Positions 38,141 through 61,485 of a stretch of 64,000 bases of DNA are shown in pieces. This DNA comes from Lachnospiraceae bacterium (lineage in GTDB: Bacteria; Bacillota_A; Clostridia; Lachnospirales; Lachnospiraceae), in NCBI GenBank assembly GCA_017522685.1, contig JAFWYN010000029.1:1-64000 (forward strand), written 5' to 3'. Numbering within the stretch: the stretch's first letter is position 1; the number at the start of each line of letters is the position of its first letter. The translations under genes were made by a program, and so were the position numbers. Under the pieces are notes generated by a model. The model saw only the letters and a program-made list of their open reading frames with translations. It was not told the origin of the DNA and did not search any database.

Positions 38141-38177
38141 AGCAATAGTATTGTGATGAATGAGGAAGGAAAACACA

Positions 38178-41079: not shown

Positions 41080-41108
41080 TAGCCATATTTGATAAATAAT
41101 GATATACT
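41080..41108 (+). promoter_or_regulatory. Extended -10 promoter before rmlB
   Basis: TATACT (41103-41108) preceded by TGA gives an extended -10; TAGCCA (41080-41085) is a moderate -35 at 17 bases. An 8-base palindrome, GGCTAGCC (41077-41084), overlaps the -35. The leader to ATG 41143 is about 28 bases. The upstream GH25 gene ends at 41069 without a clear terminator. Confidence 0.5.
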
Positions 41109-41142
41109 GTTCGCGAGTAAGAAAATGAAAGAGGAGCTTAAA

Positions 41143-42225
41143 ATGAGAACATATTTAGTAACAGGCGGTGCCGGATTTATCGGTTCCAACTATATTCATT
41201 ACATGTTTAAGAAATATGATAATGACATCCGCATTATCAACGTGGATGTACTGACCTATGCAGGTAATCTGGAAAACTTAAAGGATGTGGAAGATAGAGA
41301 GAACTACACCTTTGTAAGAGCAGATATTTGTGATAAAGAAGCCATTGCAAAGATTTTTGCAGAAAACGATATTGACCGTGTGGTACATTTTGCAGCAGAA
41401 AGCCATGTGGACAGAAGTATCCGTAATCCGGAAGTATTCGTACAGACCAATGTACTGGGTACAGCGGTTATGTTAAACTGTGCCAAGGCAGTATGGGAGC
41501 TTCCCGACGGCAGCTTCAAGGAAGGAAAGAAGTTCCTTCATGTATCTACCGATGAGGTATATGGTTCACTTCCGGATGATGAAAATGCATTCTTCTATGA
41601 GACCACAGCTTATGATCCTCACAGCCCTTATTCTGCAAGTAAGGCCAGCTCGGACATGCTGGTAAAGGCATACATGGATACCTACAAGTTCCCGGCCAAC
41701 ATTACCAACTGTTCCAACAACTACGGCCCTTATCAGTTCCCGGAGAAGCTGATCCCCCTGATTATCAACAATGCACTTCAAGGCAAGAAGCTTCCTGTAT
41801 ACGGTGACGGTAAGAACGTACGTGACTGGTTGTTTGTAGAAGATCACGCCAAGGCCATCGATATGGTACAGGAGCAGGGAAGACTGTTCGAGACTTATAA
41901 TATCGGTGGTCATAACGAGAAGCAGAATATTGAAATCATCCATATCATCATTGAAACCTTACAGGAAATGCTTCCGGAAGGTGACCCGAGAAAGGCCCTG
42001 GTAAGCAAGGACTTAATCACCTATGTGGAGGACAGAAAGGGGCATGACCGTCGTTATGCCATCGCACCTGACAAGATTAAGGCAGAAATCGGCTGGTATC
42101 CGGAGACCATGTTTAAGGAGGGTATCAAGAAGACCATTGGCTGGTTCTTTGAAAACGAAGAGTGGATGAAGAATGTGACCAGCGGAGACTATCAGAAATA
42201 TTATACTGATATGTACGAAAAATAA
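41143..42225 (+). CDS. rmlB: dTDP-glucose 4,6-dehydratase
   Basis: A 360-residue SDR enzyme making dTDP-4-keto-6-deoxyglucose from dTDP-glucose. NAD loop GGAGFIGS (residues 8-15), catalytic Asp137-Glu138 in STDEVYG, Tyr163 and Lys167 in YSASK. GDGKNVRDWLFVEDHA is a family hallmark. The start is ATG 41143, 6 bases after GAGGAG; an in-frame TTG at 41089 would add an unlikely tail. Product feeds rmlC (43289) and the WecE-like enzyme (32128). C-ending codons are commoner here than in neighbouring glycosyltransferase genes. Confidence 0.95.
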   Translation: MRTYLVTGGAGFIGSNYIHYMFKKYDNDIRIINVDVLTYAGNLENLKDVEDRENYTFVRADICDKEAIAKIFAENDIDRVVHFAAESHVDRSIRNPEVFVQTNVLGTAVMLNCAKAVWELPDGSFKEGKKFLHVSTDEVYGSLPDDENAFFYETTAYDPHSPYSASKASSDMLVKAYMDTYKFPANITNCSNNYGPYQFPEKLIPLIINNALQGKKLPVYGDGKNVRDWLFVEDHAKAIDMVQEQGRLFETYNIGGHNEKQNIEIIHIIIETLQEMLPEGDPRKALVSKDLITYVEDRKGHDRRYAIAPDKIKAEIGWYPETMFKEGIKKTIGWFFENEEWMKNVTSGDYQKYYTDMYEK

Positions 42226-42247: not shown

Positions 42248-42290
42248 GGGATTGCTGTGAAATATCAGGAATCCCTTCGGTGCGTTTTTT
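42248..42290 (+). terminator. Possible weak terminator or attenuator after rmlB
   Basis: Arms 42248-42257 and 42266-42275 pair over nine of ten bases around an 8-base loop. A six-T run (42285-42290) follows only after a 9-base gap, so function as a terminator is uncertain. If active it would lower rmlA relative to rmlB. Confidence 0.3.
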
Positions 42291-42330
42291 GAATGATAGA
42301 AAATGTGCGAGTACGGTGGTGGAAATTAAA

Positions 42331-42377
42331 AAGAATTGCGAAGCAATTCTTGTAATTGTCGCCGCCGGGCGACAATT
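42331..42377. repeat. Two tandem perfect hairpins in the rmlB-rmlA gap
   Basis: Hairpin 1 has 9-base arms (42331-42339, 42343-42351) with a GAA loop. Hairpin 2 has 10-base arms (42354-42363, 42368-42377) with a GCCG loop. They are two bases apart and end 6 bases before the rmlA ribosome site (42384-42390). No T-run follows, so they are not terminators. They may be an extragenic palindrome or an RNA stability/translation element. Confidence 0.75.
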
Positions 42378-42396
42378 TAAGATGGAGGAAATTACC

Positions 42397-43266
42397 ATGA
42401 AAGGTATCATATTAGCCGGCGGTTCCGGCACCCGTTTATATCCCTTAACAAAGGCTATCAGTAAGCAGATTATGCCCATTTACGATAAGCCTATGATTTA
42501 CTATCCCCTGTCTACCTTGATGTTGGCAGGTATCCGCGAGGTGTTGATTATTTCCACCCCCAGAGACTTACCTGTATTTGAAGAGCTTTTGGGAGACGGC
42601 AGCCAGCTGGGTATGCGTATCGAGTATGCAGTGCAGGAATATCCCAGAGGTCTGGCAGATGCCTTTATCATCGGTGCGGATTTCATCGGACAGGACAATG
42701 TGGCATTGGTATTAGGAGACAATATCTTCTACGGACAGAGCTTCTCCAAGCTGCTTCGTGAAGTGGCAAGCAGAGAAAGCGGGGCAACCATCTTCGGTTA
42801 CTATGTAAGAGACCCCAGAGAGTATGGCGTGGTAGAGTTTGATGAAAATGGTAAGGCCCTTTCCATCGAGGAGAAGCCGGAGCATCCCAAGAGCAATTAT
42901 GCAGTACCGGGCTTGTACTTCTATGACAATGACGTAGTGGAAATCGCAAAGAATGTAAAGCCTTCCGCAAGAGGAGAAATCGAAATCACCAGCATCAACA
43001 ATGAGTACCTGCGTCGAGGAACCTTGCGTGTGGAAACCATGGGAAGGGGCTTCGCATGGCTGGATACGGGAAATCATGATTCGTTATTGGATGCAGCCAA
43101 CTTCGTGGCCGCCTTCCAAAAGCGACAGGGTCTCTATGTATCCTGCATCGAAGAAATCGCCTATAAGAGAGGCTTTATCGACAGAGAGCAGCTGCTGAAG
43201 CTGGCTGAGCCGCTGATGAAGACCCAGTACGGACAGTACCTGGTGGAAGTGGCAAACGGTTTATAA
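42397..43266 (+). CDS. rmlA: Glucose-1-phosphate thymidylyltransferase
   Basis: A 289-residue enzyme making dTDP-glucose from dTTP and glucose-1-phosphate. [17 protein letters not shown] is the nucleotide loop; [31 protein letters not shown] and LGDNIFYG are family blocks. Length is typical. The ATG at 42397 is 6 bases after GGAGGAA; the frame is open upstream to a GTG at 42280, but that extension runs through two hairpins and is not coding. Its substrate can come from the phosphoglucomutase at 54756. Confidence 0.95.
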
Positions 43267-43288: not shown

Positions 43289-43852
43289 ATGGGAAAGATA
43301 ACAGTAGAAACTTGTGAAATAGAAGGCTTAAAGATCATCACCCCTACCGTATTCGGGGATGAAAGAGGATACTTTGTGGAAACCTATAATTACAATGATT
43401 ACAAGGCGGCAGGTATCGATGTGGAATTCGTACAGGATAACCAGTCTGCATCCAAGAAGGGCGTGCTTCGTGGTTTACACTTCCAGATTAACTACCCTCA
43501 GGACAAGCTGGTAAGGGTCATCAAAGGTGAGGTATTCGACGTGGCAGTGGACTTACGTAAGGGTTCCCCTACCTTCGGTCAGTGGAAGGGTGTGGTATTA
43601 AGCGCTGAGAATATGAAGCAGTTTTTTGTACCCAAGGGATTTGCACACGGCTATCTGGTGCTTTCTGATTATGCGGAATTTTGCTATAAAGTAACAGATT
43701 TCTATCATCCCGGCGATGAGGGTGGTATTATGTACAATGATCCGGGTATCGGTGTGGAATGGCCGTTCCCTGAAGGTGTGGAACTGACCTTGTCAGAGAA
43801 GGATACCAAGCATGGCGGTATCGCAGAGTATATAGAAAAGTTTGGAAAATAA
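43289..43852 (+). CDS. rmlC: dTDP-4-dehydrorhamnose 3,5-epimerase
   Basis: A 187-residue cupin enzyme that epimerises C3 and C5 of dTDP-4-keto-6-deoxyglucose. VQDNQSASKKGVLRGLHFQ holds the catalytic histidine (about His64); KVTDFYHPGDEGGIMYNDPG is the C-terminal hallmark. It follows rmlA by 22 bases. RmlD, the reductase needed to finish dTDP-L-rhamnose, is not in the window. The next gene, a Wzm permease, begins two bases after this stop, tying rhamnose supply to export. Confidence 0.94.
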   Translation: MGKITVETCEIEGLKIITPTVFGDERGYFVETYNYNDYKAAGIDVEFVQDNQSASKKGVLRGLHFQINYPQDKLVRVIKGEVFDVAVDLRKGSPTFGQWKGVVLSAENMKQFFVPKGFAHGYLVLSDYAEFCYKVTDFYHPGDEGGIMYNDPGIGVEWPFPEGVELTLSEKDTKHGGIAEYIEKFGK

Positions 43853-43854
43853 GC

Positions 43855-44859
43855 ATGAAAGAGAAAAAATCCTTTAGAAAATGGAATAGTCTCATATTTT
43901 TAGTGCTTGCTGTGGCAATGGCAGGTGTTATTGTGCTACATAAAAATCCTCTGGCAGATCCACAGGAGGAGTTATTAAAGAAGCTTCTTTCCTGCGGTGT
44001 TATCGGGGCAATTTGTATTATTTTCCTTACCTGTTATGAGAAGATTGTAGCGTTGCCAACAGAGCTTTGGCAAAACAGACATTTAATTTGGAAGCTGGCA
44101 AAGAATGATTTCAGAAAGCGCTATTCCGGTTCCTATCTGGGAGGAATCTGGGCCATGGCACAACCGGTAGTTACGGTGGTTATGTACTATATGGTGTTTG
44201 ATATCATATTTAAAAGTCCGGGACCATTGTTGAATAATGGTACCAGAGCCCCTTATGTATTGTCCCTGACGGCAGGATTGGTTCCCTGGTTTTTCTTTAG
44301 CGAAGCCTTGAATCATGGCACCATGGCATTGTTAGAGTACAATTATCTGGTAAAGAAAGTGGTGTTTAAAATCAGTGTATTACCCATCATTAAGGTAATT
44401 GCGGCGAGCTTTATCCACGTATTCTTTGTAGGTGTATTATTGGTAGTGGGATGTTTTTATGGTTATTATCCCACGATTTATACCATTCAGCTGCTTTATT
44501 ACAGTGCCTGTCTTTTTATGTTCATTCTGGCGATTTGCTATACCACCTGTGCAGTAGTGGTCTTTTTCAGAGACCTGTCACAGATTATCAATATTGTGTT
44601 GCAGATCGGTATGTGGGCCACCCCCATCCTATGGAACCTGGGTGATATGCAGGCAAGCTATGGTGATGCGGTACTTTTGTTTAAGCTGAACCCCATCGTT
44701 TATATCGTGGATGGTTATCGCAGTGCCATAATGGAGAAGCAATGGTTTTTTGAAGACTTCTTTTCCACCATGTATTTTTGGATTATTACAGCCCTGTTAT
44801 TTGGTATCGGTGCGTTGGTATTTAAGAGATTAAAAGTACATTTTGCAGATGTGCTGTAA
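43855..44859 (+). CDS. ABC polysaccharide exporter, membrane subunit (Wzm-like) with N-terminal extension
   Basis: A 334-residue permease. Two extra N-terminal membrane segments (about 12-30 and 42-62) precede the standard ABC-2 domain, which starts with an amphipathic LAKNDFRKRYSGSYLGGIW and has LVPWFFFSEALNHG and LNPIVYIVDGYRSA. It pairs with the Wzt at 44898, which has a cargo domain. It starts two bases after rmlC without a clear ribosome site, so translation is probably coupled. It is related to the 3291 permease. Confidence 0.9.
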   Translation: MKEKKSFRKWNSLIFLVLAVAMAGVIVLHKNPLADPQEELLKKLLSCGVIGAICIIFLTCYEKIVALPTELWQNRHLIWKLAKNDFRKRYSGSYLGGIWAMAQPVVTVVMYYMVFDIIFKSPGPLLNNGTRAPYVLSLTAGLVPWFFFSEALNHGTMALLEYNYLVKKVVFKISVLPIIKVIAASFIHVFFVGVLLVVGCFYGYYPTIYTIQLLYYSACLFMFILAICYTTCAVVVFFRDLSQIINIVLQIGMWATPILWNLGDMQASYGDAVLLFKLNPIVYIVDGYRSAIMEKQWFFEDFFSTMYFWIITALLFGIGALVFKRLKVHFADVL

Positions 44860-44897: not shown

Positions 44898-46187
44898 ATG
44901 CAGGAAAATTCACAGATTGCAATTGATGTGCAGAATGTTCAAAAAATATATAAATTGTACAATAAGCCTTCAGACCGTATGAAGGATGCGTTTGGTCTGT
45001 TAAAGCACAATCCCCCCAAAAAGCACTATGCATTAAGTGGGGTGAGTATGCAGATTAAAACCGGTGAGACGGTAGGTATTATCGGAACCAACGGATCCGG
45101 AAAGTCCACCATTTTGAAGATTATTACCGGCGTGCTGAATCCCAGTGCGGGTGAGGTGACGGTTAATGGCCGTATTTCTGCACTGCTGGAGCTGGGTGCA
45201 GGCTTTAATATGGAGTATAACGGTATCGAAAATGTGTATCTGAATGGTACCATGATGGGCTTTTCCGAAAAAGAAATTGATGAAAAGCTTCCTGCAATCT
45301 TGGAGTTTGCAGATATCGGAGATTATGTATATCAGCCTTGTAAAACCTATTCCAGTGGTATGTTTGTACGACTGGCTTTTGCGGTAGCCATAAATATCGA
45401 ACCGGAGATTTTGATAGTAGATGAAGCGTTGTCCGTAGGTGATGTTTTCTTCCAGGCCAAATGTTATCATAAGTTTGAAGAATTTAAGAAGATGGGTAAG
45501 ACCATTGTTTTTGTCAGCCACGATTTGAGCAGTATCAGCAAGTATTGTGACAGAGTATATTTGTTGAACAAAGGAAAACTTTTAGGCGAAGGTAAGCCCA
45601 AGGAAATGATAGATACCTATAAGAGAGTGCTGGTGGGCCAATACGAAGAAATGGCAGTAGAGGAAGCCAATTTGTTGGATGATGAATTGCTTCGAAAGAA
45701 AGCAGCGCAGGCAGCACAAGGCCAGAATCCGGAAACCTTGGAGTATGGTACCAAACAAGGTGAGATTGTTGAGTTTTTTGTGACGGATGACAGAGGAATC
45801 CGAAGCAATGCCATTCTAAAGAATGCTGAGTTTACCATACACATGAAGGTAAAGTTTTATGAGAATATCAAGATGCCTATTTTTGCATTTACCATAAAGG
45901 ATGTGAAGGGCGTGGAGATTACCGGTACCAACAGTATGGTAGAAAAAGCTTATCTGGACGGTGGAAAGGCCGGAGAAACAAAGGAGATTACCTTTACCCA
46001 GAAGATGACATTGCAGGGAGGCGAATATTTGTTGTCCCTTGGCTTAACCGGTTATGATAACGATGTGTTTGAAGTATATCATCGTCTGTATGATGCAATA
46101 AATATAACAGTAATCGCGGACAAGAATACTGTGGGATATTATGATATGAATTCCCGGATTACGGTAAAGGATGTAATAGAAGATTAA
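44898..46187 (+). CDS. ABC polysaccharide exporter ATPase with C-terminal cargo-binding-type domain (Wzt)
   Basis: A 429-residue protein. The ATPase (about 1-245) has Walker A GTNGSGKST, signature YSSGM and Walker B EILIVDEALSVGD. After a helical linker (about 250-285) comes a beta-sandwich region (about 285-429; FTIHMKVKFYENIKMPIFAF, LSLGLTGYDND) like the Wzt C-terminal domain that recognises the modified end of a finished polysaccharide. Directly downstream is a methyltransferase-kinase-like protein, the type of enzyme that makes such an end in E. coli O8/O9a. Ribosome site AAAGGA. Confidence 0.92.
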   Translation: MQENSQIAIDVQNVQKIYKLYNKPSDRMKDAFGLLKHNPPKKHYALSGVSMQIKTGETVGIIGTNGSGKSTILKIITGVLNPSAGEVTVNGRISALLELGAGFNMEYNGIENVYLNGTMMGFSEKEIDEKLPAILEFADIGDYVYQPCKTYSSGMFVRLAFAVAINIEPEILIVDEALSVGDVFFQAKCYHKFEEFKKMGKTIVFVSHDLSSISKYCDRVYLLNKGKLLGEGKPKEMIDTYKRVLVGQYEEMAVEEANLLDDELLRKKAAQAAQGQNPETLEYGTKQGEIVEFFVTDDRGIRSNAILKNAEFTIHMKVKFYENIKMPIFAFTIKDVKGVEITGTNSMVEKAYLDGGKAGETKEITFTQKMTLQGGEYLLSLGLTGYDNDVFEVYHRLYDAINITVIADKNTVGYYDMNSRITVKDVIED

Positions 46188-46215
46188 TAGGAAGTCCCTA
46201 AATAAGGAGGTTCCC

Positions 46216-48297
46216 TTGGAAAACAGAGAACAGATTGGAAAAATTTGGTTGGATTTAAGTAAATATCCCGGCGAGGATTTTTATTGTGACGGAGCAGTTG
46301 AGGATGAAATCCTGAAGATTGCCAGAGATTATTCTCCGGTGGAGTATCCGAAACTGATAGAAGAGAAAAAAAGTTGGCCCGTATTCTATCATTTGTCTTC
46401 CCAGAGAGAAAATATCGTAGAGTTTTTGCCTATTACGAAAGAAGATAAGGTGTTAGAGGTAGGAAGCGGCTGTGGTGCCATTACGGGAGCCTTGGCAAAG
46501 AAGGCCGGAAATGTAACCTGTGTGGATTTGTCTAAGAAGAGAAGCATGATTAATGCGTATCGACATGGTGAGTGTGATAATGTTACCATTCACGTAGGTA
46601 ATTTTAAGGATATCGAACCGGACCTGCCGGCAGATTACGATTATGTATGCCTGATAGGTGTGTTTGAGTATGGTCAGAGTTATATTGGCGGGGACAAGCC
46701 CTTTGTGGAATTTTTGAATATCCTGAAGAAACATTTGAAGAGGGACGGCAGGATTGTCATAGCCATAGAGAATAAGTACGGCCTGAAATACTTTGCAGGT
46801 TGTGCAGAGGACCATTTGGGCACTTATTTCAGCGGTATTGAGAATTATGCGGCCGGTGGAGGAGTACGCACTTTTTCTAAAAATGGTCTGGAAAAGATCT
46901 TTAAGGAATGCGGTATAGAAGAGTACCATTTTTATTATCCCTACCCGGATTATAAGTTTATGACAATGGCATACTCCGATAAGAGACAACCGAAAGTGGG
47001 AGAGTTGTCTAATAATCTGCGTAATTTTGACAGGGAAAGAATGCTTTTGTTCAATGAAAAGAATGCTTTTGACGGCATGTCCGAGGATGGTCTGTTTCCG
47101 GTATTCTCCAATTCTTATGTGGCAATATTGGGCCGAGAGTTGCCCCTTCAGTATGTAAGGTATTCTAATGACCGTGCAGAGGAGTATCAGATTAAAACGG
47201 TTATTTTGGAGAAGGATGATCATCAGAAAGAGGTGCGTAAGTATCCATTGACAGAGGCGGCCAGAGAGCATGTAAGGAATATGCTGACTGCTTATGAAGG
47301 ACTGAAAAAAAGATATGCAGGAAGCAAACTGACTATCAACAAATGCCGTTTTCTGGAAACCTCGCAAGAATGCTATGCGGCATTTGAGTTTGTGGAAGGA
47401 AGAATGCTGTCAGAATTGATGGATGATTGCCTGGAAAAGCAGGATGTGGAAGGTTTTCATAAGCTTTTCGATGAATATGTGGAACGAATCGGCTATGGAG
47501 ACGATGCAAACGTAACAGACTTTGATTTGGTATTTTCCAATATCATTGTAAATGGCGATGAGTGGACCGTGATTGATTATGAATGGACATTCGGCAAAAA
47601 TATTGAAACTAAAGAACTGGCATTCCGTGCACTGTACTGCTATCTCATGGAAGATGAGCGCCGAAACGGTCTGCAACCGGACCGTGCACTGGATAAGTTG
47701 GGAATAACCCAGCAGGATGCGGAGAATTACAGACAGCAGGAAAGAGAGTTCCAAAGATTCGTAACCGGAAAAAGGATGTCTGTAAGCGAAATATATCAGT
47801 TAATCGGAAGGGGGGTATATACTCCCCAGGATTGGATAGACGGCTATCGTACCAATAGGGAGATTCGCAGAATACAGATATACGAAGATACCGGAAACGG
47901 ATTTAGAGAAGAAACCTCCCATCTTTTGTACGGCAATTATGAAGATGAAAACACTGTGGAATTGGAATATGTGGTGACCGGTAATGTAAAGGTGTTGCGT
48001 TTGGATCCGGCATTTGATTCCTGTGTATGCAGGATTTCAGATATTAACATTAACGGTCAGCCTTTGGTGCTGACGAAGAAAGGCTTACTGCAAACAAACG
48101 GTAAGGTTTTAAAGAGTAAAACAGAGAATGAAACCGGCGTGAGTGTGGTATTTGCTACACAAGACCCGAATATCAGCATTGATATGAATGAGTTATTGCC
48201 GGATAAGGAGAACCTGCTGAGTGTGCGGATGGAAGTGGTGAGACTTCCCATGCAAATTGCAAAAGACATGGCGGGAGCGGTTAAGAAGTTGATTTAG
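46216..48297 (+). CDS. Methyltransferase-kinase-like fusion, WbdD-type chain-terminator candidate
   Basis: A 693-residue protein. A class I SAM methyltransferase (about 60-260) has motif I VLEVGSGCGAITG (residues 79-91). A kinase-like region follows (about 320-490): TDFDLVFSN has a catalytic-type Asp437 and Asn442 in the DLxxxN arrangement, and VIDYEW places Asp454 like the metal-binding Asp of phosphotransferases. A beta-rich C-terminal domain (about 570-693) has no clear match. In E. coli O9a, WbdD phosphorylates and methylates the chain end, which then engages the Wzt tail domain. The TTG start is backed by AAGGAGG 5 bases upstream. The kinase part could be inactive. Confidence 0.76.
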   Translation: MENREQIGKIWLDLSKYPGEDFYCDGAVEDEILKIARDYSPVEYPKLIEEKKSWPVFYHLSSQRENIVEFLPITKEDKVLEVGSGCGAITGALAKKAGNVTCVDLSKKRSMINAYRHGECDNVTIHVGNFKDIEPDLPADYDYVCLIGVFEYGQSYIGGDKPFVEFLNILKKHLKRDGRIVIAIENKYGLKYFAGCAEDHLGTYFSGIENYAAGGGVRTFSKNGLEKIFKECGIEEYHFYYPYPDYKFMTMAYSDKRQPKVGELSNNLRNFDRERMLLFNEKNAFDGMSEDGLFPVFSNSYVAILGRELPLQYVRYSNDRAEEYQIKTVILEKDDHQKEVRKYPLTEAAREHVRNMLTAYEGLKKRYAGSKLTINKCRFLETSQECYAAFEFVEGRMLSELMDDCLEKQDVEGFHKLFDEYVERIGYGDDANVTDFDLVFSNIIVNGDEWTVIDYEWTFGKNIETKELAFRALYCYLMEDERRNGLQPDRALDKLGITQQDAENYRQQEREFQRFVTGKRMSVSEIYQLIGRGVYTPQDWIDGYRTNREIRRIQIYEDTGNGFREETSHLLYGNYEDENTVELEYVVTGNVKVLRLDPAFDSCVCRISDININGQPLVLTKKGLLQTNGKVLKSKTENETGVSVVFATQDPNISIDMNELLPDKENLLSVRMEVVRLPMQIAKDMAGAVKKLI

Positions 48298-48317
48298 AAT
48301 CCTTAAGGAGGATGACA

Positions 48318-50150
48318 TTGGGGATTAAGCAAACAGTTAAATGTTTTTTGACTGCAATAAGAAATGAAAAGTATATAAAGGAACTTGCCGGCAAGAAGTA
48401 TTCCTATGAAGCCTGGGTGAAGCAGGACGAGGAACAAAAAAAGGTTGCTGTTCAGGAGATGTCAGAAGATTTTGTGATATGGAAGCTGGCGAATGGTGTT
48501 ATTTCTGAAGGTGCCATGTCCCAGCTGGCGGTATATTTCAAGAAGCATCCGGAAGCAAAAGTGTTGTATGGTGACGAGGATGTGAGGGAGGCGGACGGTA
48601 TAAGGAAGAATCCTTGGATAAAGCCCTGCTGGTCTCCGGATACCTATAAAACATATTTTTACGTGGGAAGTGTGGTTGCAGTCAGACAATCCCTGTTGGC
48701 AGAGATGGGTTATGAGAAAACGGACCCCATAGTAGAATACAAGGCTACGGAAGAAATAAGAGAACGGATGGACCGTATACTTGTTAAGGCCGGAGCTTTT
48801 GAAAAGGGGACCCATGCTGTGCAAAGAGTACCCTACGTGCTGTTCCATGCCGCATCCGATTCGACCCGGGATACCCATTTGGCGTCCAAGTGCAGTCTTT
48901 CAGAGCCCAGGGCAGAGGCTAAGGTGTCTGTGATTATTCCTTCGAAGGACAATCCTGATATGCTAAAGCAGTGTTTGGATTCCTTACGCAAACAAGCTGC
49001 CGATTTGGATATTATAGTGGTTGACAACGGCAGTAATGAAGAGAATCGTGGAAAGATTGAATTACTTACAGAGGGTATGAAGTATATTTACCGCCCTATG
49101 GAATTTAATTTCTCACAGATGTGTAATATAGGTGCCCAAGCGGCACAGAATCCCCTGCTATTGTTTTTAAATGATGATATAGAGTTGGACAGCAGTGCCT
49201 GGTTGGAGCGCATGTGCCAAAAGGCTGTAAATTCTTATGTGGGTGCAGTAGGCCTAAAGCTTTATTATCCCAACGGAAATCTGATTCAGCATGCGGGCGT
49301 TATTAATATGCCGGTAGGTCCGGACCATAAGTTGCGAACTCTGCCGGATACGAAGGATTATTATTTCGGCTGGAATAAATATACCCATAACAGCAGTGCG
49401 GTTACAGGTGCCTGCCTGATGGTGGAAGCGAAGAAGTATTGGGAAATCGGCGGTTTTGAGGAAAAACTGGCAGTCTGCTATAACGATGTGGATTTGTGTT
49501 TCCGTTTGTATGAGCAAGGATATCATAATGTGGTGATTAATGAGTATTTTGCATGGCACCATGAGTCTGTCAGTCGTGGCAGTGATGAGGAAAACCCTCA
49601 GAAGCAGGCCAGATTTTGGAAAGAATGGAACGGACTTTATGAATATCATCCGGATTTTGTAGAGGAAGACCCATATTATCCCATTGAAATGGATAGATGG
49701 AGCCTGAATAATAGAATACAACCTGCATACATTTACGGAGTTTACAGTCCCCAAAAGCCTGTGTGGAAAGCTTATGCAGGGATGAAGGGATTGCGCCACG
49801 ATCCCTGTCTGATGGCCCGTGTTGAGATGTATGACAAGAAGAAAATACAAGGCTATGGTATTGTCTTAGGTGATGACAATGCCTGTTATGAGAGATATTT
49901 GGTGCTTAGCCCTGAGCCAGAAAGTGATACCATATCCTCAGGAAGCTTTTTGTTGAAGCTGGAGGGAAAGTATCGCTATGAATTGGAGCAAAACGTTCCC
50001 GATCAAAAGAACGTGGCATTATGCGGTTATTGTATCAGCAGGGAGGGTGAAAACCTGCCGTCAGGCTCCTACAAAGTGGGAATGATAGCAGTAAACAAAG
50101 TGACCGGACTTAAACTGTTCAGTTGGTGCGGAAAGGTATTGGATATATGA
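48318..50150 (+). CDS. Family 2 glycosyltransferase with an N-terminal half-domain
   Basis: About 610 residues. The full GT-A domain (about 200-440) has KVSVIIPSKDNPDMLKQC, VVDNGSNEEN, LFLNDDIELD and YNDVDLCFRL, as in rhamnosyltransferase-like GT2 enzymes. Before it, residues about 50-190 look like the acceptor half of another GT2 domain (YGDEDVRE; WSPDTYKTYFYVGSVVAVR) without its nucleotide-binding half. A beta-rich tail follows (about 490-610). I chose TTG 48318, 6 bases after GGAGG; ATG 48312 abuts the ribosome site. The stop overlaps the next start (ATGA). Confidence 0.82.
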   Translation: MGIKQTVKCFLTAIRNEKYIKELAGKKYSYEAWVKQDEEQKKVAVQEMSEDFVIWKLANGVISEGAMSQLAVYFKKHPEAKVLYGDEDVREADGIRKNPWIKPCWSPDTYKTYFYVGSVVAVRQSLLAEMGYEKTDPIVEYKATEEIRERMDRILVKAGAFEKGTHAVQRVPYVLFHAASDSTRDTHLASKCSLSEPRAEAKVSVIIPSKDNPDMLKQCLDSLRKQAADLDIIVVDNGSNEENRGKIELLTEGMKYIYRPMEFNFSQMCNIGAQAAQNPLLLFLNDDIELDSSAWLERMCQKAVNSYVGAVGLKLYYPNGNLIQHAGVINMPVGPDHKLRTLPDTKDYYFGWNKYTHNSSAVTGACLMVEAKKYWEIGGFEEKLAVCYNDVDLCFRLYEQGYHNVVINEYFAWHHESVSRGSDEENPQKQARFWKEWNGLYEYHPDFVEEDPYYPIEMDRWSLNNRIQPAYIYGVYSPQKPVWKAYAGMKGLRHDPCLMARVEMYDKKKIQGYGIVLGDDNACYERYLVLSPEPESDTISSGSFLLKLEGKYRYELEQNVPDQKNVALCGYCISREGENLPSGSYKVGMIAVNKVTGLKLFSWCGKVLDI

Positions 50151-52105
50151 CGGAGATGAATTATAAGGAAGCTTATGAAAAAGAGCGGGAAAAGTGCATA
50201 AAGCTGGAGGACAGGCTTGCTACACTGGAGTCTCAGAATGCAGATTTACAATGCAAGCTGGACAAGATTAAGAACAGTATTTTCTGGAAAATGAGCAAAC
50301 CCTTCCGAGTGGTAATCAATTTTGTGTTGCGTCAGAAGCAACGTTTGGAACGTTGTGACGGACTGGGAGATTTTCTCAACAGTGTCCGGATTAAATTGCA
50401 GCAGAAGGGGAAAATGAAGAATTACGGTACCAATAGTTTTCCTACGGAAGAGGAAGCTAAGCTTCAGAGGGAGACCAAGTTTGAGCGGATGGTAAAAATC
50501 AGTATTCTGGTACCTCTGTGGAATACTCCCAAGGATTTCCTTCGTGAAATGATAGAGTCAGTAGTAAACCAGACTTATACGAACTGGGAGCTTTGTCTGG
50601 CGGATGGTTCCGATGAGGAGCATGCCTATGTGGGCGAGATTTGCAAAGAGTATCAGGTGGATTCGCAGGGACGGATTGTGTATGAGAAATTGGCAAAAAA
50701 TGAAGGCATTGCAGGCAATACCAACCAGTGTTATCGATTAGCAACCGGTGAATATATCGGATTGTTTGACCACGATGATTTGTTGCACCCTGCTGTTTTA
50801 TATGAATATGTAAAAGCCATTAATGAAAAGCGGGCGGACTATCTGTATTGTGATGAGATTACCTTTCATAAAGGGGATATTAATAAGATGCTGGTAATGC
50901 ATTTTAAGCCGGATTATGCGTTGGATAACTTGAGGGCGAATAACTATATTTGTCATTTCAGTGTATTCTCAAGGGAGCTGTTAGAAGGAACGGAATTGTT
51001 CCGCACGGCTTTTGACGGAAGTCAGGACCATGATATGATACTCAGACTGACAGACCGGGCTAAAAATGTGGTGCATATTCCCAAGGTGTTATATTATTGG
51101 CGTTCCCATGCAGGCAGTGTGGCTTCCGGAATCGGTGCGAAGCCCTATGCCATTGAAGCGGCTAAGGGAGCAGTGGCAGACCATTTGCAAAAGCATGGTA
51201 TGGACCATTTTCAGATTACCAGTACAAGGGCTTGTGAAACCATATTCAGAATCCGTTATCAGGTATTGGGCAATCCCAGAATATCTATTGTGATTGCAAA
51301 TAAGGACCATGCAGAGGATTTGAAACGTTGTGTGGATTCTATAATGGAACGTTCTTCTTACAGTAATTATGAAATTATCATTGTAGAGAATAATAGTACC
51401 ACAGATGAAATCAGGAAGCTTTATAAGGAATATCAGGAAAAGTATCCTTTCATCAAAGTGGTCACATATGAAGGTGCATTTAACTATTCGGCAGTTAATA
51501 ATCTGGGTGTGAAGTATGCAGAGGGCGAATATATTCTGCTTCTGAACAATGACACGGAGGTAATTACCCCCGGTTGGATGGAAGAGATGCTGATGTATGC
51601 CCAGAGAGAAGATGTGGGTGCAGTAGGTGCAAAGCTTTTGTATGGAGACAGAACCATACAACATGCAGGAGTGGTTCTTAAGCTGGGTGCACACCGTACG
51701 GCAGGACACGGACATTATAAGCAGCCTGACAGCAAACTGGGATATATGGGCAGATTGTGTTACGCCCAAAATGTTTCCGCAGTGACAGGTGCCTGTTTAT
51801 TGGTGAAGAAGAGTGTGTTTGAGCGGGTAAACGGTTTGGAGGAGAGCTTTCAGATTTCCTTAAATGATGTGGATTTTTGTTTGAAACTTCGGGAACTGGG
51901 CTATTTAAATGTATGGACCCCTTTTGCAGAGCTTTATCATCATGAATCCATCTCCAGAGGTCTGGATGATAAGGGTGAGAAAGCAGAACGTTACAACAGA
52001 GAATCAGAGCAGTTCCGTAAGAAGTGGAAGGAAGTCCTGGAGAAAGGGGACCCTTATTACAATCCCAATTTCTCGCTGGATAGAAGTGATTTTTCGTTAA
52101 AGTAG
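50147..52105 (+). CDS. Coiled-coil plus tandem two-domain family 2 glycosyltransferase
   Basis: About 652 residues. A predicted coiled coil (about 5-45; EREKCIKLEDRLATLESQ) is followed by a basic amphipathic stretch. Domain 1 (about 110-370) has SILVPLWNTPKDFLREM and LFDHDDLLHP. Domain 2 (about 380-640) has ISIVIANKDHAEDLKRC, LLLNNDTEV and LNDVDFCLKL. Both retain nucleotide and DxD motifs, so this may be a processive or dual-specificity enzyme for the exported polymer. Its ATG overlaps the previous stop. The coiled coil may set subunit contacts or chain length, as proposed for polymer-length rulers. Confidence 0.85.
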   Translation: MTEMNYKEAYEKEREKCIKLEDRLATLESQNADLQCKLDKIKNSIFWKMSKPFRVVINFVLRQKQRLERCDGLGDFLNSVRIKLQQKGKMKNYGTNSFPTEEEAKLQRETKFERMVKISILVPLWNTPKDFLREMIESVVNQTYTNWELCLADGSDEEHAYVGEICKEYQVDSQGRIVYEKLAKNEGIAGNTNQCYRLATGEYIGLFDHDDLLHPAVLYEYVKAINEKRADYLYCDEITFHKGDINKMLVMHFKPDYALDNLRANNYICHFSVFSRELLEGTELFRTAFDGSQDHDMILRLTDRAKNVVHIPKVLYYWRSHAGSVASGIGAKPYAIEAAKGAVADHLQKHGMDHFQITSTRACETIFRIRYQVLGNPRISIVIANKDHAEDLKRCVDSIMERSSYSNYEIIIVENNSTTDEIRKLYKEYQEKYPFIKVVTYEGAFNYSAVNNLGVKYAEGEYILLLNNDTEVITPGWMEEMLMYAQREDVGAVGAKLLYGDRTIQHAGVVLKLGAHRTAGHGHYKQPDSKLGYMGRLCYAQNVSAVTGACLLVKKSVFERVNGLEESFQISLNDVDFCLKLRELGYLNVWTPFAELYHHESISRGLDDKGEKAERYNRESEQFRKKWKEVLEKGDPYYNPNFSLDRSDFSLK

Positions 52106-52130: not shown

Positions 52131-53582
52131 ATGCTGTTTAATTCCTATGTGTTTGTATTATTATTTTTTCCTTTATGCCTGATAGGGTATTTTGTACTGA
52201 ATCATTTTCATAAATATACCTTGGGACATGCCTTTTTGTTTGGAATGTCACTGTGGTTTTACGGGTATTTTAATCCCGGATACCTGTTGATTATAATAAG
52301 CAGTATTCTTTTAAATTACGGAGTATATAAACTTCTCGATAGGTACAAAGGAAAGAAAATCCATAAGCCCATTATGATTGCCGGAGTGGCAATAAATGTG
52401 GGGATTTTGATTTATTTCAAATATATGGATTTCTTTATTGAGAATATCAACATGGTATTTGGACTTAAAGTTGAATTACTGCATATATTGTTGCCCTTGG
52501 GTATCAGTTTTTTTACCTTTCAGCAGATATCCTTTATTGTGGATGCCTACAGAGGTGAAATTCCCAACTATGGCTTTATCGAGTATGCTTGCTTTGTGTC
52601 CTATTTCCCGCAGTTGATTGCGGGACCTATCGTAACCCATGATGAGCTGATTCCTCAGTTTAAGGATGAATCAAAAAAGTGTTTTAATTCGGACAATTTT
52701 GTGCAGGGTCTGTATATATTTACTCTGGGTTTAGCTAAGAAGGTACTGTTAGCAGATACTTTCAGTGATGCAGTGGTTTATGGATTTACGACCATTGACA
52801 ATTTGAGTGCAGTAACGGCTCTTATTGTGATGTTGTCCTATACCATACAGATATATTTTGATTTTAGCGGATATTGTGATATGGCAATCGGTATCGGTAA
52901 AATGATGAATATTGATTTACCTTTGAATTTTAATTCTCCTTATAAAGCTTTGACCATTACAGAGTTTTGGGACAGATGGCATATGACATTGACCAGATTT
53001 TTTACCAAGTATGTATATATACCCTTGGGAGGAAATCGTAAAGGAACCGTAAGAACCTATGTAAATGTATTTTTGGTGTTTATGATTAGCGGATTTTGGC
53101 ACGGGGCTAGTTGGAATTTTGTGTTCTGGGGCGTGTGTCATGGACTCTTTGTGATATTGACCAGAGCCTTTAAGAAGTTCTTTGAGGCATTGCATCCGGC
53201 ACTAAATTGGTTGATTACGTTTTCTTTTGTGAATGTTATGTGGGTCTTTTTCAGGGCAGAAACCTTCGGTCAGGCCATAAAACTTTTGAAGGCTTTATTC
53301 TCATGGAATTTCTCTTTTGACTATATATTTGTGGAAATGTTCAGACTGCCGGAACTGAAAAAAGTACTTAGTGTATTCCGAATAGAGGACAGATATCCGC
53401 AGGTTTTGATTACGGCGTTTTTCCTGGTAGCCATGATATTGATATTGGGAAGCGAGAATGCTTATGAAAAGATGAAAAAGTGTAAGCCCACTGTTGTTAA
53501 TTTTGTGATGATTATATTTTTATTTACCTGGTGTGTATTTTCCTTTGCAGGCATCAGTGAGTTCTTATATTTTAATTTCTAG
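52131..53582 (+). CDS. MBOAT-family O-acyltransferase (AlgI/PatA-like)
   Basis: A 483-residue membrane protein with about eleven segments. FFTFQQISFIVDAYRGE and the catalytic-histidine block GFWHGASWNF (His324) are diagnostic of the AlgI/DltB branch. It passes acyl groups across the membrane to a partner that acetylates an outer polysaccharide. That partner is likely the SGNH-like protein that begins 17 bases downstream. The acyl donor inside the cell is not visible. Confidence 0.92.
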   Translation: MLFNSYVFVLLFFPLCLIGYFVLNHFHKYTLGHAFLFGMSLWFYGYFNPGYLLIIISSILLNYGVYKLLDRYKGKKIHKPIMIAGVAINVGILIYFKYMDFFIENINMVFGLKVELLHILLPLGISFFTFQQISFIVDAYRGEIPNYGFIEYACFVSYFPQLIAGPIVTHDELIPQFKDESKKCFNSDNFVQGLYIFTLGLAKKVLLADTFSDAVVYGFTTIDNLSAVTALIVMLSYTIQIYFDFSGYCDMAIGIGKMMNIDLPLNFNSPYKALTITEFWDRWHMTLTRFFTKYVYIPLGGNRKGTVRTYVNVFLVFMISGFWHGASWNFVFWGVCHGLFVILTRAFKKFFEALHPALNWLITFSFVNVMWVFFRAETFGQAIKLLKALFSWNFSFDYIFVEMFRLPELKKVLSVFRIEDRYPQVLITAFFLVAMILILGSENAYEKMKKCKPTVVNFVMIIFLFTWCVFSFAGISEFLYFNF

Positions 53583-58922: not shown

Positions 58923-58953
58923 ATGAGTAGATTCGTGAAAACGGGTGGCGCTT

Positions 58954-60363
58954 ATGATAAAGGATAACCAAAAGATTTTAAATAGAATGCATGTGGTAAT
59001 GGATGCGTTGATTACCATTATTTCGTATGCATTGGCATATGTTTTAAAGTTTTATGTGATAGATGCCGGATCCATGGGGATTGGAGTACTTCCGCCCAAG
59101 GATTATTTTAGCATGCTTCTCTTTTTGGTGCCTGCATATGTGCTGTTATATTATTTGTGTAATGTGTATGGTCCCAAACGTACCGGAAAGCAGCATCGGG
59201 AAATAGGCGCAATTATTAAGGCAAACACCGTAGGAATGGCCCTGTATATTGTGATTTTGTATATCTTTGTGCAGGAAATCAACTATTCCCGTTCGATGAT
59301 GGCCATTTTTTATGTCTTAAATATTGTAATTACCACAATTTCACGCATTATTTTACGAAAAACCTTGCATTCTATGCGTAAAAGGGGTTATAATTTAAAG
59401 CATGTTTTGGTGGTAGGGTATTCTAGGGCCGCTGAAAGCTATATCGACCGTTTGCAGTGGAATCCTCATTGGGGCTATGTTGTCTGTGGTGTATTGGATG
59501 ATTTTGTTCCGAGGGATACCTTGTATAAAGGGGTAAAGGTGTTGGGCGAAATCGACAGATTGCAGGAGATTTTGCAAAACAGCAAGTTGGACGAAATCGC
59601 AATTGCATTATCACTTCGTGATTATGACAGATTGGAAGAGATTGTCAACATATGTGAGAAGTCAGGTGTTCATACTAAGTTTATTCCTGATTATAACAGT
59701 CTGATTCCCAGCAGTCCGTATACAGAGGATTTGATGGGCTTACCGGTGATTAATATACGTTATGTGCCTTTGACCAATACCGGGAATATGGTGATAAAGA
59801 GAGCCATGGATATTGCCGGTGCACTTTTTGGTATTATCATTACTTCTCCCATTTTATTAATCATTGCTGTCTTGGTAAAAATAACCAGTCCGGGTCCCAT
59901 TATTTTTAAGCAGGAAAGAGTGGGACTGCATAATGTGCCCTTTTATATGTATAAGTTCCGCAGTATGGAGCAACAGACTGAGGCGGATGAAAAGAAGGCA
60001 TGGACAGTAAAAAACGACCCCAGAGTGACACCAATAGGAAAGTTTATACGCAAAACCAGTTTGGATGAGTTGCCGCAGTTGTTCAATATCTTAAAGGGAG
60101 ATATGAGCCTGGTAGGTCCCCGTCCGGAGAGACCGTTATTTGTGGATAAATTTAAAGAAGAAATCCCCAGATATATGATAAAGCATCAGGTGAGACCGGG
60201 ACTGACCGGTTGGGCACAGGTGAACGGTTATCGTGGAGATACTTCCATTAAGAAAAGAATAGAATATGATTTGTATTATATTGAGAATTGGACATTTTCG
60301 TTTGATATAAAGATAATTTTACTAACATTTATTACCGGATTTATCAACAAAAATGCCTATTAA
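58954..60363 (+). CDS. Initiating polyprenyl-phosphate phosphoglycosyltransferase (WbaP/PssY type)
   Basis: A 469-residue protein that starts glycan synthesis by moving a sugar phosphate to undecaprenyl phosphate. About four N-terminal membrane segments, a Rossmann-like middle domain (about 145-260; HVLVVGYSRAAESY) and a re-entrant hydrophobic segment (about 285-310) precede the catalytic domain (KFRSM; TSLDELPQLFNILKGDMS; GPRPE; RPGLTGWAQVNGY). ATG 58954 is preferred over the in-frame GTG at 58945, because GGGTGG lies 5 bases before it. The substrate could be UDP-glucose, UDP-galactose or a GlcNAc derivative. It is co-transcribed with the LCP gene. Confidence 0.93.
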   Translation: MIKDNQKILNRMHVVMDALITIISYALAYVLKFYVIDAGSMGIGVLPPKDYFSMLLFLVPAYVLLYYLCNVYGPKRTGKQHREIGAIIKANTVGMALYIVILYIFVQEINYSRSMMAIFYVLNIVITTISRIILRKTLHSMRKRGYNLKHVLVVGYSRAAESYIDRLQWNPHWGYVVCGVLDDFVPRDTLYKGVKVLGEIDRLQEILQNSKLDEIAIALSLRDYDRLEEIVNICEKSGVHTKFIPDYNSLIPSSPYTEDLMGLPVINIRYVPLTNTGNMVIKRAMDIAGALFGIIITSPILLIIAVLVKITSPGPIIFKQERVGLHNVPFYMYKFRSMEQQTEADEKKAWTVKNDPRVTPIGKFIRKTSLDELPQLFNILKGDMSLVGPRPERPLFVDKFKEEIPRYMIKHQVRPGLTGWAQVNGYRGDTSIKKRIEYDLYYIENWTFSFDIKIILLTFITGFINKNAY

Positions 60364-60378
60364 GCAAGGAGAATTGTA

Positions 60379-61485
60379 ATGGCAGCGAGAGCAAACAGAA
60401 ATGGTAAGCAGCGCGTAAAGATTTTTATTTTTCTGATTGAAATTTTAATCATAGTAGCGATGCTTTTAGTGGTATGGAAGGTATTTGAAACTACGGATAA
60501 GACAGAAGGACCTCATATGGTAACTATCGAAGAAAGCGATATTATCATAAATTCAGAGGTAAAGGAAAGTCTGGAAAACAAAGAAACTACTGCTGAAAAT
60601 GATAAATCAAAGGGCTATTGGAACATTGCGCTTTTCGGTGTGGATGCTGTTACGACTGAACAGCTCTATAAGGGTAGCCGTAGTGATACCATTATGATTG
60701 CTTCCGTAAATATGGATACCGGTGAGATAAAACTACTCTCCGTATATCGTGATACCTATTTGAATAAAGGTAACGATAAATATGGTAAGTGTAACGGTGC
60801 CTATGCTGCAAACGGTGCGAAGCAGGCTATGAGTATGCTGAATCTGAACCTGGATTTGGCAATTACAGATTTCGTAACCGTAGGATATTATGCTGTAAAA
60901 GAATGTGTTGATGGTTTGGGTGGCGTTTGGATAGATATTGACAGCGCTGAGTTAGAGCATATCAATAATTATCAGTTGAGTATTATCCGTGATACAGATA
61001 TTCCTAAGAGCGAATATGTACCTGTTACAGATACCGGACGTCAGTTACTAAATGGTTTACAGGCTGCAGCATATTGTCGTATCCGTTATACAAAGGGTGA
61101 TGACTTCATGCGTACCGCACGTCAGCGAGAAGTTGTGCAGGCCATGTCAGAGCAGGCTAAGGAAATGAGCCTAAGTGAATTGACAGATTTGCTGCCTAAG
61201 GTGCTTAAGTATGTATATACCAGTGTTGATGAAACCGATATGGTAGAATTGTTGAAGAATATTGGTAAGTATTATATTACGGATGAGGGCGGTTTCCCGA
61301 AACAGGAATGGTTAGAGACAAATAATATCGGTTCCAGCGGAAGCTGTGTAGTACCGATTGATTTGGAAAAGAATGTTGTCTGGTTACATGAGATTCTTTT
61401 TGAGAGTGAGGATTATCAGGTTTCAGAAGCAGTAAAGGAATGCAGTAAACGTATTAAGTCAGATACAGCACCTTATTTAAATTAA
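60379..61485 (+). CDS. LytR-CpsA-Psr (LCP) family cell-wall glycan ligase
   Basis: A 368-residue protein with one N-terminal membrane segment (about 15-36) and an outer LCP domain (about 80-290). NIALFGVDAV, GSRSDTIMI and LSVYRDTYL carry the conserved acidic and arginine residues that hold the polyprenyl pyrophosphate; FMRTARQREVVQAM is a later hallmark. LCP enzymes join wall teichoic acid or capsule from the lipid carrier to peptidoglycan. Its place after the initiating enzyme suggests it attaches the polymer made here. A strong terminator follows. Confidence 0.92.
   Translation: MAARANRNGKQRVKIFIFLIEILIIVAMLLVVWKVFETTDKTEGPHMVTIEESDIIINSEVKESLENKETTAENDKSKGYWNIALFGVDAVTTEQLYKGSRSDTIMIASVNMDTGEIKLLSVYRDTYLNKGNDKYGKCNGAYAANGAKQAMSMLNLNLDLAITDFVTVGYYAVKECVDGLGGVWIDIDSAELEHINNYQLSIIRDTDIPKSEYVPVTDTGRQLLNGLQAAAYCRIRYTKGDDFMRTARQREVVQAMSEQAKEMSLSELTDLLPKVLKYVYTSVDETDMVELLKNIGKYYITDEGGFPKQEWLETNNIGSSGSCVVPIDLEKNVVWLHEILFESEDYQVSEAVKECSKRIKSDTAPYLN

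Follow-up and report, generated by a model that had tools for sequence, protein, structure and literature searches.

The stretch of DNA analysed here, hereafter the window, comprises 64,000 nucleotides of contig JAFWYN010000029.1 from a Lachnospiraceae bacterium (assembly GCA_017522685.1), and it contains a glycan locus in which a putative chain-terminating enzyme is encoded next to an ABC exporter. All features of this locus lie on the plus strand. The order starts with rmlB (dTDP-glucose 4,6-dehydratase, 41089..42225), rmlA (glucose-1-phosphate thymidylyltransferase, 42280..43266) and rmlC (dTDP-4-dehydrorhamnose 3,5-epimerase, 43289..43852), each with a match over the cut-off. There follow wzm, the membrane subunit of the exporter (ABC2_membrane in Pfam, 43855..44859), and the adjoining wzt, its ATP-binding subunit (44898..46187, ATG start, 429 aa). 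Next come the gene for the proposed terminator (46216..48297, TTG start, 693 aa), hereafter the 46216 protein, the glycosyltransferase GT1 (one family 2 domain in Pfam, 48312..50150), GT2 (two family 2 domains in Pfam, probably the polymerase, 50123..52105) and an MBOAT O-acyltransferase (52131..53582). The same strand continues with a Pfam-negative gene, a phosphoglucomutase-family gene, more glycosyltransferases, an undecaprenyl-phosphate sugar-1-phosphate transferase that is a WcaJ equivalog for chain initiation (58945..60363), and a LytR-CpsA-Psr (LCP) protein likely to attach the glycan to peptidoglycan (60379..61485). From its sequence, the locus reads as one for a rhamnose-containing glycan that is assembled on undecaprenyl phosphate, leaves the cell through the ABC transporter and is then attached to the wall; this last step is inferred because the locus holds an LCP gene.

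The window Wzt is an ABC ATPase followed by a Wzt_C cargo-binding domain (45702..46184; residues 281-417, Pfam E 4.5e-37) whose best match in the PDB is 2r5o. The original prediction, made from the letters of the DNA, had described a Wzt with a C-terminal domain and a second protein 28 bases on, and both open reading frames (ORFs) and the exact gap are confirmed; within the gap is a ribosome-site-like AAGGAGG. The 46216 protein begins with a methyltransferase domain (residues 1-305, 46216..47130), in which the predicted S-adenosylmethionine (SAM) motif is present at residues 79-91 (VLEVGSGCGAITG) and Pfam finds methyltransferase families inside residues 65-234. The kinase domain (residues 308-520, 47137..47775) is not recognised by Pfam, and an NCBIfam Bud32 model touches residues 384-467 weakly (E 0.034). 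The kinase-like Asp437, Asn442 and Asp454 that had been proposed are read in DLVFSN (437-442) and DYEW (454-457). They belong, with K342 and E456, to nine invariant columns across 27 kinase domains, of which the eleven furthest from that of the window are 19-34% identical to it. The same five residues do not vary in an alignment of 70 sequences, paralogues of 29-32% identity among them. The residues of the SAM site are mostly invariant in the enzyme family. Eukaryotic-type kinases match the enzyme profile weakly (GCN2, E 0.025); GCN2 and JAK appear at E 0.0006-0.0037 among the best 60 of 260 matches of another profile search, and fall to E 0.9-1.3 with a kinase-only profile. The protein ends in a beta-sandwich (residues 548-693, 47857..48294), positioned like the carbohydrate-binding module (CBM) of the Klebsiella pneumoniae O7 terminator. 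The idea that this beta domain is a common glycosyltransferase module was considered: outside methyltransferase/kinase proteins its profile matched 2 of 2221 ORFs, both in genome G185 (L128 and L147) and probably the same gene.

An AlphaFold2 model of the 46216 protein, built from the 70 sequences, has a mean predicted local distance difference test (pLDDT) of 88.1 and a predicted template modelling score (pTM) of 0.76. It shows the methyltransferase, kinase and beta domains in that order, with region 320-490 modelled as a kinase-type domain; the beta-rich C-terminal domain that had been predicted consists of strands between residues 553 and 676, then a helix (679-688). When the full-length model was used as a Foldseek query, five entries for WbdD, the two-domain chain modifier of Escherichia coli O9a, were the top 5 of 350,542 PDB chains (E 3.7e-10 to 2.9e-9, the following row being at 5.7e-9). 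Their alignments cover 492-565 columns at 11-14% identity, and the other 45 of the best 50 rows cover 223-319 columns.

Relatives of the enzyme are numerous: homologues (E 0.001) make up 4076 of the 7995 candidates scored, and the closest relative in the named genome records comes from a Lachnospiraceae metagenome-assembled genome (L031), with 97% identity. Among the 80 loci kept for examination out of 186 relatives, Wzt_C lies upstream on the same strand in 79, and the single exception (L078) has just 117 bases of sequence upstream of its match. The distance between the end of the Wzt_C match and the start of the enzyme match is below 800 bases in 75 of these 79 loci and 1.5-3.8 kb in L033, L086, L087 and L091. 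One carrier of the pair is the record of Acetatifactor muris DSM 23669 (L089). A near sample comprised 99 genomes surrounding the nearest relative, with 61 from its genus. In it, the enzyme (E 1e-60, a cut-off of our choice) is found in 59 of those 61 and in a single genome among the other 38, and the Wzt_C type in 59 of the 61 and in that same genome outside the genus. Both are present in 59 genomes, the enzyme alone in one (G026, 63% complete), Wzt_C alone in one (G052, at a contig end) and neither in 38 (Fisher p 4e-25, ignoring phylogeny). In a class-wide sample of 391 genomes (enzyme cut-off E 1e-15), the enzyme occurs in 25 genomes spanning eight families and Wzt_C over the cut-off in 66; they occur together in 23 genomes of six families (Fisher p 1e-17). 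With a kinase-type fold in the full-length model and the pair co-occurring, neither another fold of region 320-490 nor a separate distribution of the two genes was therefore found. The enzyme was not found in viral contigs (0 of 36 stretches). A relative at L075:10001-12070 has a stop codon inside the matched stretch. There is also a paralogue family of about 566 aa (L111:3838-5538, genome G001; 2027 of 7999 candidates are homologues), with methyltransferase and kinase, which ends before the beta domain; no Wzt match was found in the 9 kb read around this paralogue locus, a second locus.

The cargo domains themselves fall into types that follow the enzyme. With a Wzt_C cut of 114 bits, chosen after the list had been viewed, the enzyme is present in 23 of the 25 class genomes at or above the cut and in 0 of the 41 with a weaker Wzt_C. 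Nine loci (L138-L146) were read among the higher-scoring of the 43 class genomes positive for Wzt_C and negative for the enzyme. A different methyltransferase is the next gene in six of them (L140, L141, L142, L144, L145 and L146), and in L138 and L139 the next gene is a glycosyltransferase. The cargo domains of the six methyltransferase-paired loci match the Aquifex aeolicus domain at 63 bits versus 29.4 for 2r5o. Those paired with the enzyme show the reverse, at 30.9 bits for 2r5o versus 15.9 for Aquifex with the window Wzt_C alone, and 86.7 versus 38 with a profile of seven enzyme-paired domains. The full-length exporter closest to the window Wzt by sequence and fold is Aquifex Wzm-Wzt; the Wzt model is poor (pLDDT 67) and therefore only its fold ranking was used. 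In the sampled genomes the Wzt_C type thus tracks the enzyme type, methyltransferase-kinase or plain methyltransferase. Complete genes were available in 52 of the 80 sets (the window and L032-L110). There, Wzt_C distances correlate with those of the methyltransferase (0.60), kinase (0.59), Wzm (0.58) and ATPase (0.49), and at lower values with GT1 (0.33), beta domain (0.32), GT2 (0.30), RmlC (0.22) and RmlA (0.07). GT1 is the most variable of the ten proteins and domains compared. At L141:7278-11225 and L145:3696-6764, in other Clostridia, proteins resembling WsaE of Geobacillus (methyltransferase, GT2 and group 1 glycosyltransferase domains) lie right after Wzt_C transporters.

These data bear on the possibility that the cap is a methyl group only, made as by the methyl-capping O8 WbdD or by WsaE, with an inactive kinase-like domain that merely holds the glycan. 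The failure of Pfam to see the kinase would fit, as would the methyl cap described in a Gram-positive (PMC2943079). However, four catalytic-type residues are invariant in the 27 Clostridial kinase domains. All 25 enzyme-bearing class genomes match a kinase profile, which finds in addition only G388 and to which eight of the 25 supplied rows, and the enzyme-paired Wzt_C belongs with 2r5o and not with the methyl-cap domain of Aquifex. We therefore regard a methyl-only cap as improbable.

The closest characterised enzyme appears to be the N-terminal part of ORF6, the terminator of K. pneumoniae O7 (PMC11231755, JBC 2024). In that protein a methyltransferase is joined to an unannotated kinase (catalytic D441), an immunoglobulin (Ig)-like CBM, a coiled coil and GT2 modules. 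It is reported to add a phosphate at position 3 of the terminal rhamnose and then, incompletely in vitro, to methylate this phosphate, and its D441A variant is inactive (PMC11231755). Its CBM is described as known in no other terminator, and orthologues are named in alpha- and gammaproteobacteria and cyanobacteria, with an archaeal homologue too (PMC11231755). The window protein shares the succession of methyltransferase and kinase and has a beta domain in the place of the Ig-like CBM, and the rhamnose acceptor of O7 has its counterpart in the rml genes of the window locus. ORF6, in contrast, carries its own coiled coil and two GT2 modules, whereas the window protein stops after the beta domain and a separate gene of the locus supplies two GT2 domains and a short heptad segment. 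Because the coiled coil and GT2 modules are absent from the same protein, the window protein is a variant and not a plain member of the ORF6 type; its host, by taxonomy, also has no outer membrane, unlike that of O7. A beta domain in place of a coiled coil, as described in the original prediction, is not a novelty, since in the O7 terminator an Ig-like CBM follows the kinase (PMC11231755).

The comparison with ORF6 used the residue numbering reported in PMC11231755, mapped via a Pseudomonas homologue. A tblastn search of 72,556 plasmid records gave two matches, of which this is one (1457 aa, E 3e-38, query residues 23-659); Pfam finds methyltransferase and GT2 domains in it, and it lies directly after wzm-wzt. 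The SAM-site residues of ORF6 (Y28, Y66, G91, G93, E112 and Y158) recur at identical positions in the Pseudomonas protein, and their aligned counterparts in the window are the conserved Y23, Y58, G83, G85, D104 (Asp for Glu) and Y152; the counterpart of O7 D441, judged by position, is D443 in the Pseudomonas protein and D437 in the window. The other match, from Citrobacter (649 aa, E 1e-29, query residues 4-522), lies in a locus ordered rffG-rfbA-rfbC-rfbD, transposase, wzm, wzt, enzyme and glycosyltransferases, an rml-wzm-wzt-enzyme-glycosyltransferase order like that of the window; this gene was not matched in the E. coli genomes searched. Wzt_C is present in both Gram-negative Wzt proteins, at 102.8 bits (Pseudomonas) and 93.3 bits (Citrobacter). 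Proteins resembling the O7 terminator (P0241-P0360, 1412-1644 aa) are the best 120 of 1396 homologues, and the organism names among the matches listed are Pseudomonas.

We consider it likely that the 46216 protein is a bifunctional terminator of the O7 ORF6 type, which caps a rhamnose-containing glycan before export by Wzm-Wzt. Its activity, cap chemistry, acceptor sugar, recognition by the exporter and link to the wall are inferred as follows. At the cytoplasmic face, GT1 and GT2 would lengthen the undecaprenyl-linked chain. The kinase domain would then phosphorylate the non-reducing terminal sugar, probably rhamnose, after which the methyltransferase domain would methylate that phosphate and extension would stop. 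The beta domain may hold the glycan during these steps. Wzt_C would bind the capped end, Wzm-Wzt would export the chain, and the LCP protein would probably link it to peptidoglycan.

Several observations weigh against this reading. The WbdD matches have low TM-scores (0.18-0.29) and a root-mean-square deviation of 15.6-19.4 in Foldseek, which we take to mean that the two proteins agree in their domains and domain order but differ in how the domains are placed relative to one another. The best 50 VIA-align rows are methyltransferase matches, mainly to model residues 18-308, and therefore give no test of the kinase fold. The Gram-negative link is carried by the methyltransferase (142-145 bits). 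The Pseudomonas kinase scores 10.7 bits and its beta domain 4.1 (shuffle maxima 6.6 and 2.5), a weak match for a domain that sits where the O7 CBM sits; in the same profile comparison the Citrobacter kinase scores below zero and no beta match is found. K342 is replaced in both proteins, and D454 is Glu in Citrobacter. Two of the seven rows of the enzyme-paired Wzt_C profile are Gram-negative sequences, and 2r5o itself is presumably the Wzt of E. coli O9a. Wzt_C distances track Wzm as closely as they do the enzyme, and cap recognition is therefore supported but not proven. The co-occurrence p-values of both samples do not remove phylogeny. Two genomes, G105 (L154, beside a 244-aa Wzt) and G257 (L155), have the enzyme but no Wzt_C, and a copy in L112 stands beside a 245-aa Wzt; enzyme and Wzt_C genes are on different contigs in G211 and 2-4 kb apart in G185, G343 and G358. 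The methyltransferase-kinase genes at L112:14620-16963 and L154:1149-3794, directly after short Wzt proteins (244-245 aa) with no cargo domain, mean that the pairing rule is not absolute.

Relatives of the enzyme also occur in split and fused forms. A separate methyltransferase gene (259-326 aa) is found in L117, L147, L148, L149, L151, L153 and L156, with the kinase gene next to or overlapping it. The beta profile matches the kinase gene in L147, L148 and L149. In L151, L153 and L156 the kinase genes run on into parts matching the window GT1 or GT2, and in L117 into GT2 and group 1 glycosyltransferase domains (Pfam). The L117 protein is ordered as kinase, a stretch aligning with the beta domain, a stretch that looks coil-like by eye, WKMTKPFR and glycosyltransferases; despite this alignment, there is no beta-profile match in it. 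Fused glycosyltransferase domains with stretches coil-like by eye are seen in L117 and L158. In the window, it is GT2 that has a heptad, coiled-coil-like N-terminus (50159..50308), with WKMSKPFR at its end, and this may be a membrane or scaffold element. Of 55 full-length GT2 proteins, the window GT2 among them, 49 carry a motif of the WKMSKPFR pattern, which was not found in 12 other proteins checked from split-form loci. The score of the segment of about 40 residues, on a home-made heptad scale, was matched by 0 of 500 shuffles; the terminator itself has a low heptad score and no coiled coil in its model. Of the length-control logic in the original prediction, capping and recognition are the parts supported; the long coil is missing from the terminator, and the short heptad segment on the neighbouring polymerase could act as a scaffold instead. 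At L150:2921-6457 (G408), a 1178-aa kinase protein lies near a Wzt with Wzt_C, and the methyltransferase-like frame between them is, by eye, short and degenerate; from its sequence, a phosphate-only cap is possible there.

Two further explanations should be weighed against termination by methyl-phosphate. The enzyme could be a decorator, placing methyl-phosphate, or phosphate and methyl, on internal or side-chain sugars, with Wzt_C reading some other feature. The MBOAT and acyltransferase neighbours do suggest a decorated glycan, but the pairing with Wzt_C, the tracking of the enzyme type by the Wzt_C type, the kinase-glycosyltransferase fusions of relatives and the modification of terminal rhamnose by the O7 relative (PMC11231755) speak against it, and we think it unlikely, if somewhat less so than a methyl-only cap. 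Alternatively, the cap could be a phosphate of another type, for instance a bare or a cyclic one, in which case the methyltransferase would act at some other hydroxyl. L150, which keeps the kinase, would be consistent with this, and in the S-layer glycan of Clostridioides difficile Ox247 the chain ends in 2,3-cyclophosphoryl-rhamnose, for which the authors suggest a capping role (PMC6254364). Most SAM-site residues are nonetheless invariant in the family, and the O7 relative methylates its phosphate (PMC11231755), which leaves such a cap the least probable of the alternatives.

Like WbdD of E. coli O9a, the window protein unites methyltransferase then kinase in one protein and is paired with a cargo-domain Wzt, but WbdD residues 460-708 include a coiled coil where the window protein has its beta domain (PMC3482155). 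WbdD was absent from the 53 sequence matches, from the 14 of the kinase-only profile and from the best 60 of 260. Plain WbdD membership is rejected because the coiled coil is missing and WbdD is absent among the sequence matches listed. The WbdD-like character first proposed thus stands in the fold search, which WbdD tops, but WbdD is probably not the nearest relative: the closest ones found outside Clostridia are Gram-negative proteins that agree in residue numbering with O7 ORF6, a different type of methyltransferase-kinase. The same WbdD paper also mentions Gram-positives (PMC3482155). In Geobacillus, a terminal 2-O-methyl rhamnose of the S-layer glycan is proposed to stop growth and to be bound by Wzt (PMC2943079); the likeness lies in the Gram-positive host, rhamnose glycan and terminal modification. 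There, however, WsaE is a methyltransferase fused to two glycosyltransferases, a kinase is not mentioned in the passages concerned, and the product is linked to S-layer protein (PMC2943079); in the window protein a kinase-type domain is present and Pfam finds no glycosyltransferase domain. C. difficile Ox247 is likewise Clostridial, with an ABC exporter and a phosphate-modified terminal rhamnose as proposed terminator, but its cap is a cyclophosphate and the word kinase does not occur in the main text (PMC6254364). The Aquifex cargo domain recognises a 3-O-methyl sugar cap (PMC9445017), and it resembles the domains paired with other methyltransferases more than that of the window.

Two observations concern regions of the window upstream of the locus. 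Just before the rml genes, positions 38160-41069 encode a 969-aa protein in which a GH25 lysozyme domain is combined with a choline-binding repeat and a Big_2 domain. Between 23976 and 27110, matches to a PseF cytidylyltransferase (24911) and a NeuB-acetyltransferase fusion (25614) suggest a nonulosonic-acid pathway.

Capping with ABC export in Gram-positives has already been proposed for Geobacillus (PMC2943079) and C. difficile Ox247 (PMC6254364). What this analysis adds is the occurrence of the enzyme family in Clostridia, where nearly every genome sampled from one genus has it, together with its split and fused variants and the correspondence of Wzt_C type to enzyme type; among the matches listed in the literature searched, no paper on this methyltransferase-kinase family in Gram-positives was found. 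A broader proposal, which we advance tentatively and at somewhat less than even odds, is that in Clostridia the cap and not the repeat unit is the password for export. At least two Wzt_C types would match the cap enzyme, a methyl-phosphate maker or a plain methyltransferase, and in one Lachnospiraceae genus the gene of the methyl-phosphate type would belong to the conserved core, whereas the glycosyltransferases diverge. These would be the first methyl-phosphate-capped wall glycans of Gram-positives. Capping-coupled export was worked out for outer-membrane O antigens; if it also serves the wall glycans of gut Clostridia, it would be a general check on export and not a trick of lipopolysaccharide. 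The enzyme would then be a candidate for the making of phosphate-type glycan ends in Gram-positives, with the simple prediction of one methyl-phosphate per chain. The split, fused and possibly kinase-only forms would provide a natural series on how capping is coupled to polymerisation without a long ruler on the terminator. Finally, a putative capping enzyme and its matching exporter in a host without an outer membrane would let one ask whether the tag alone is the export password.

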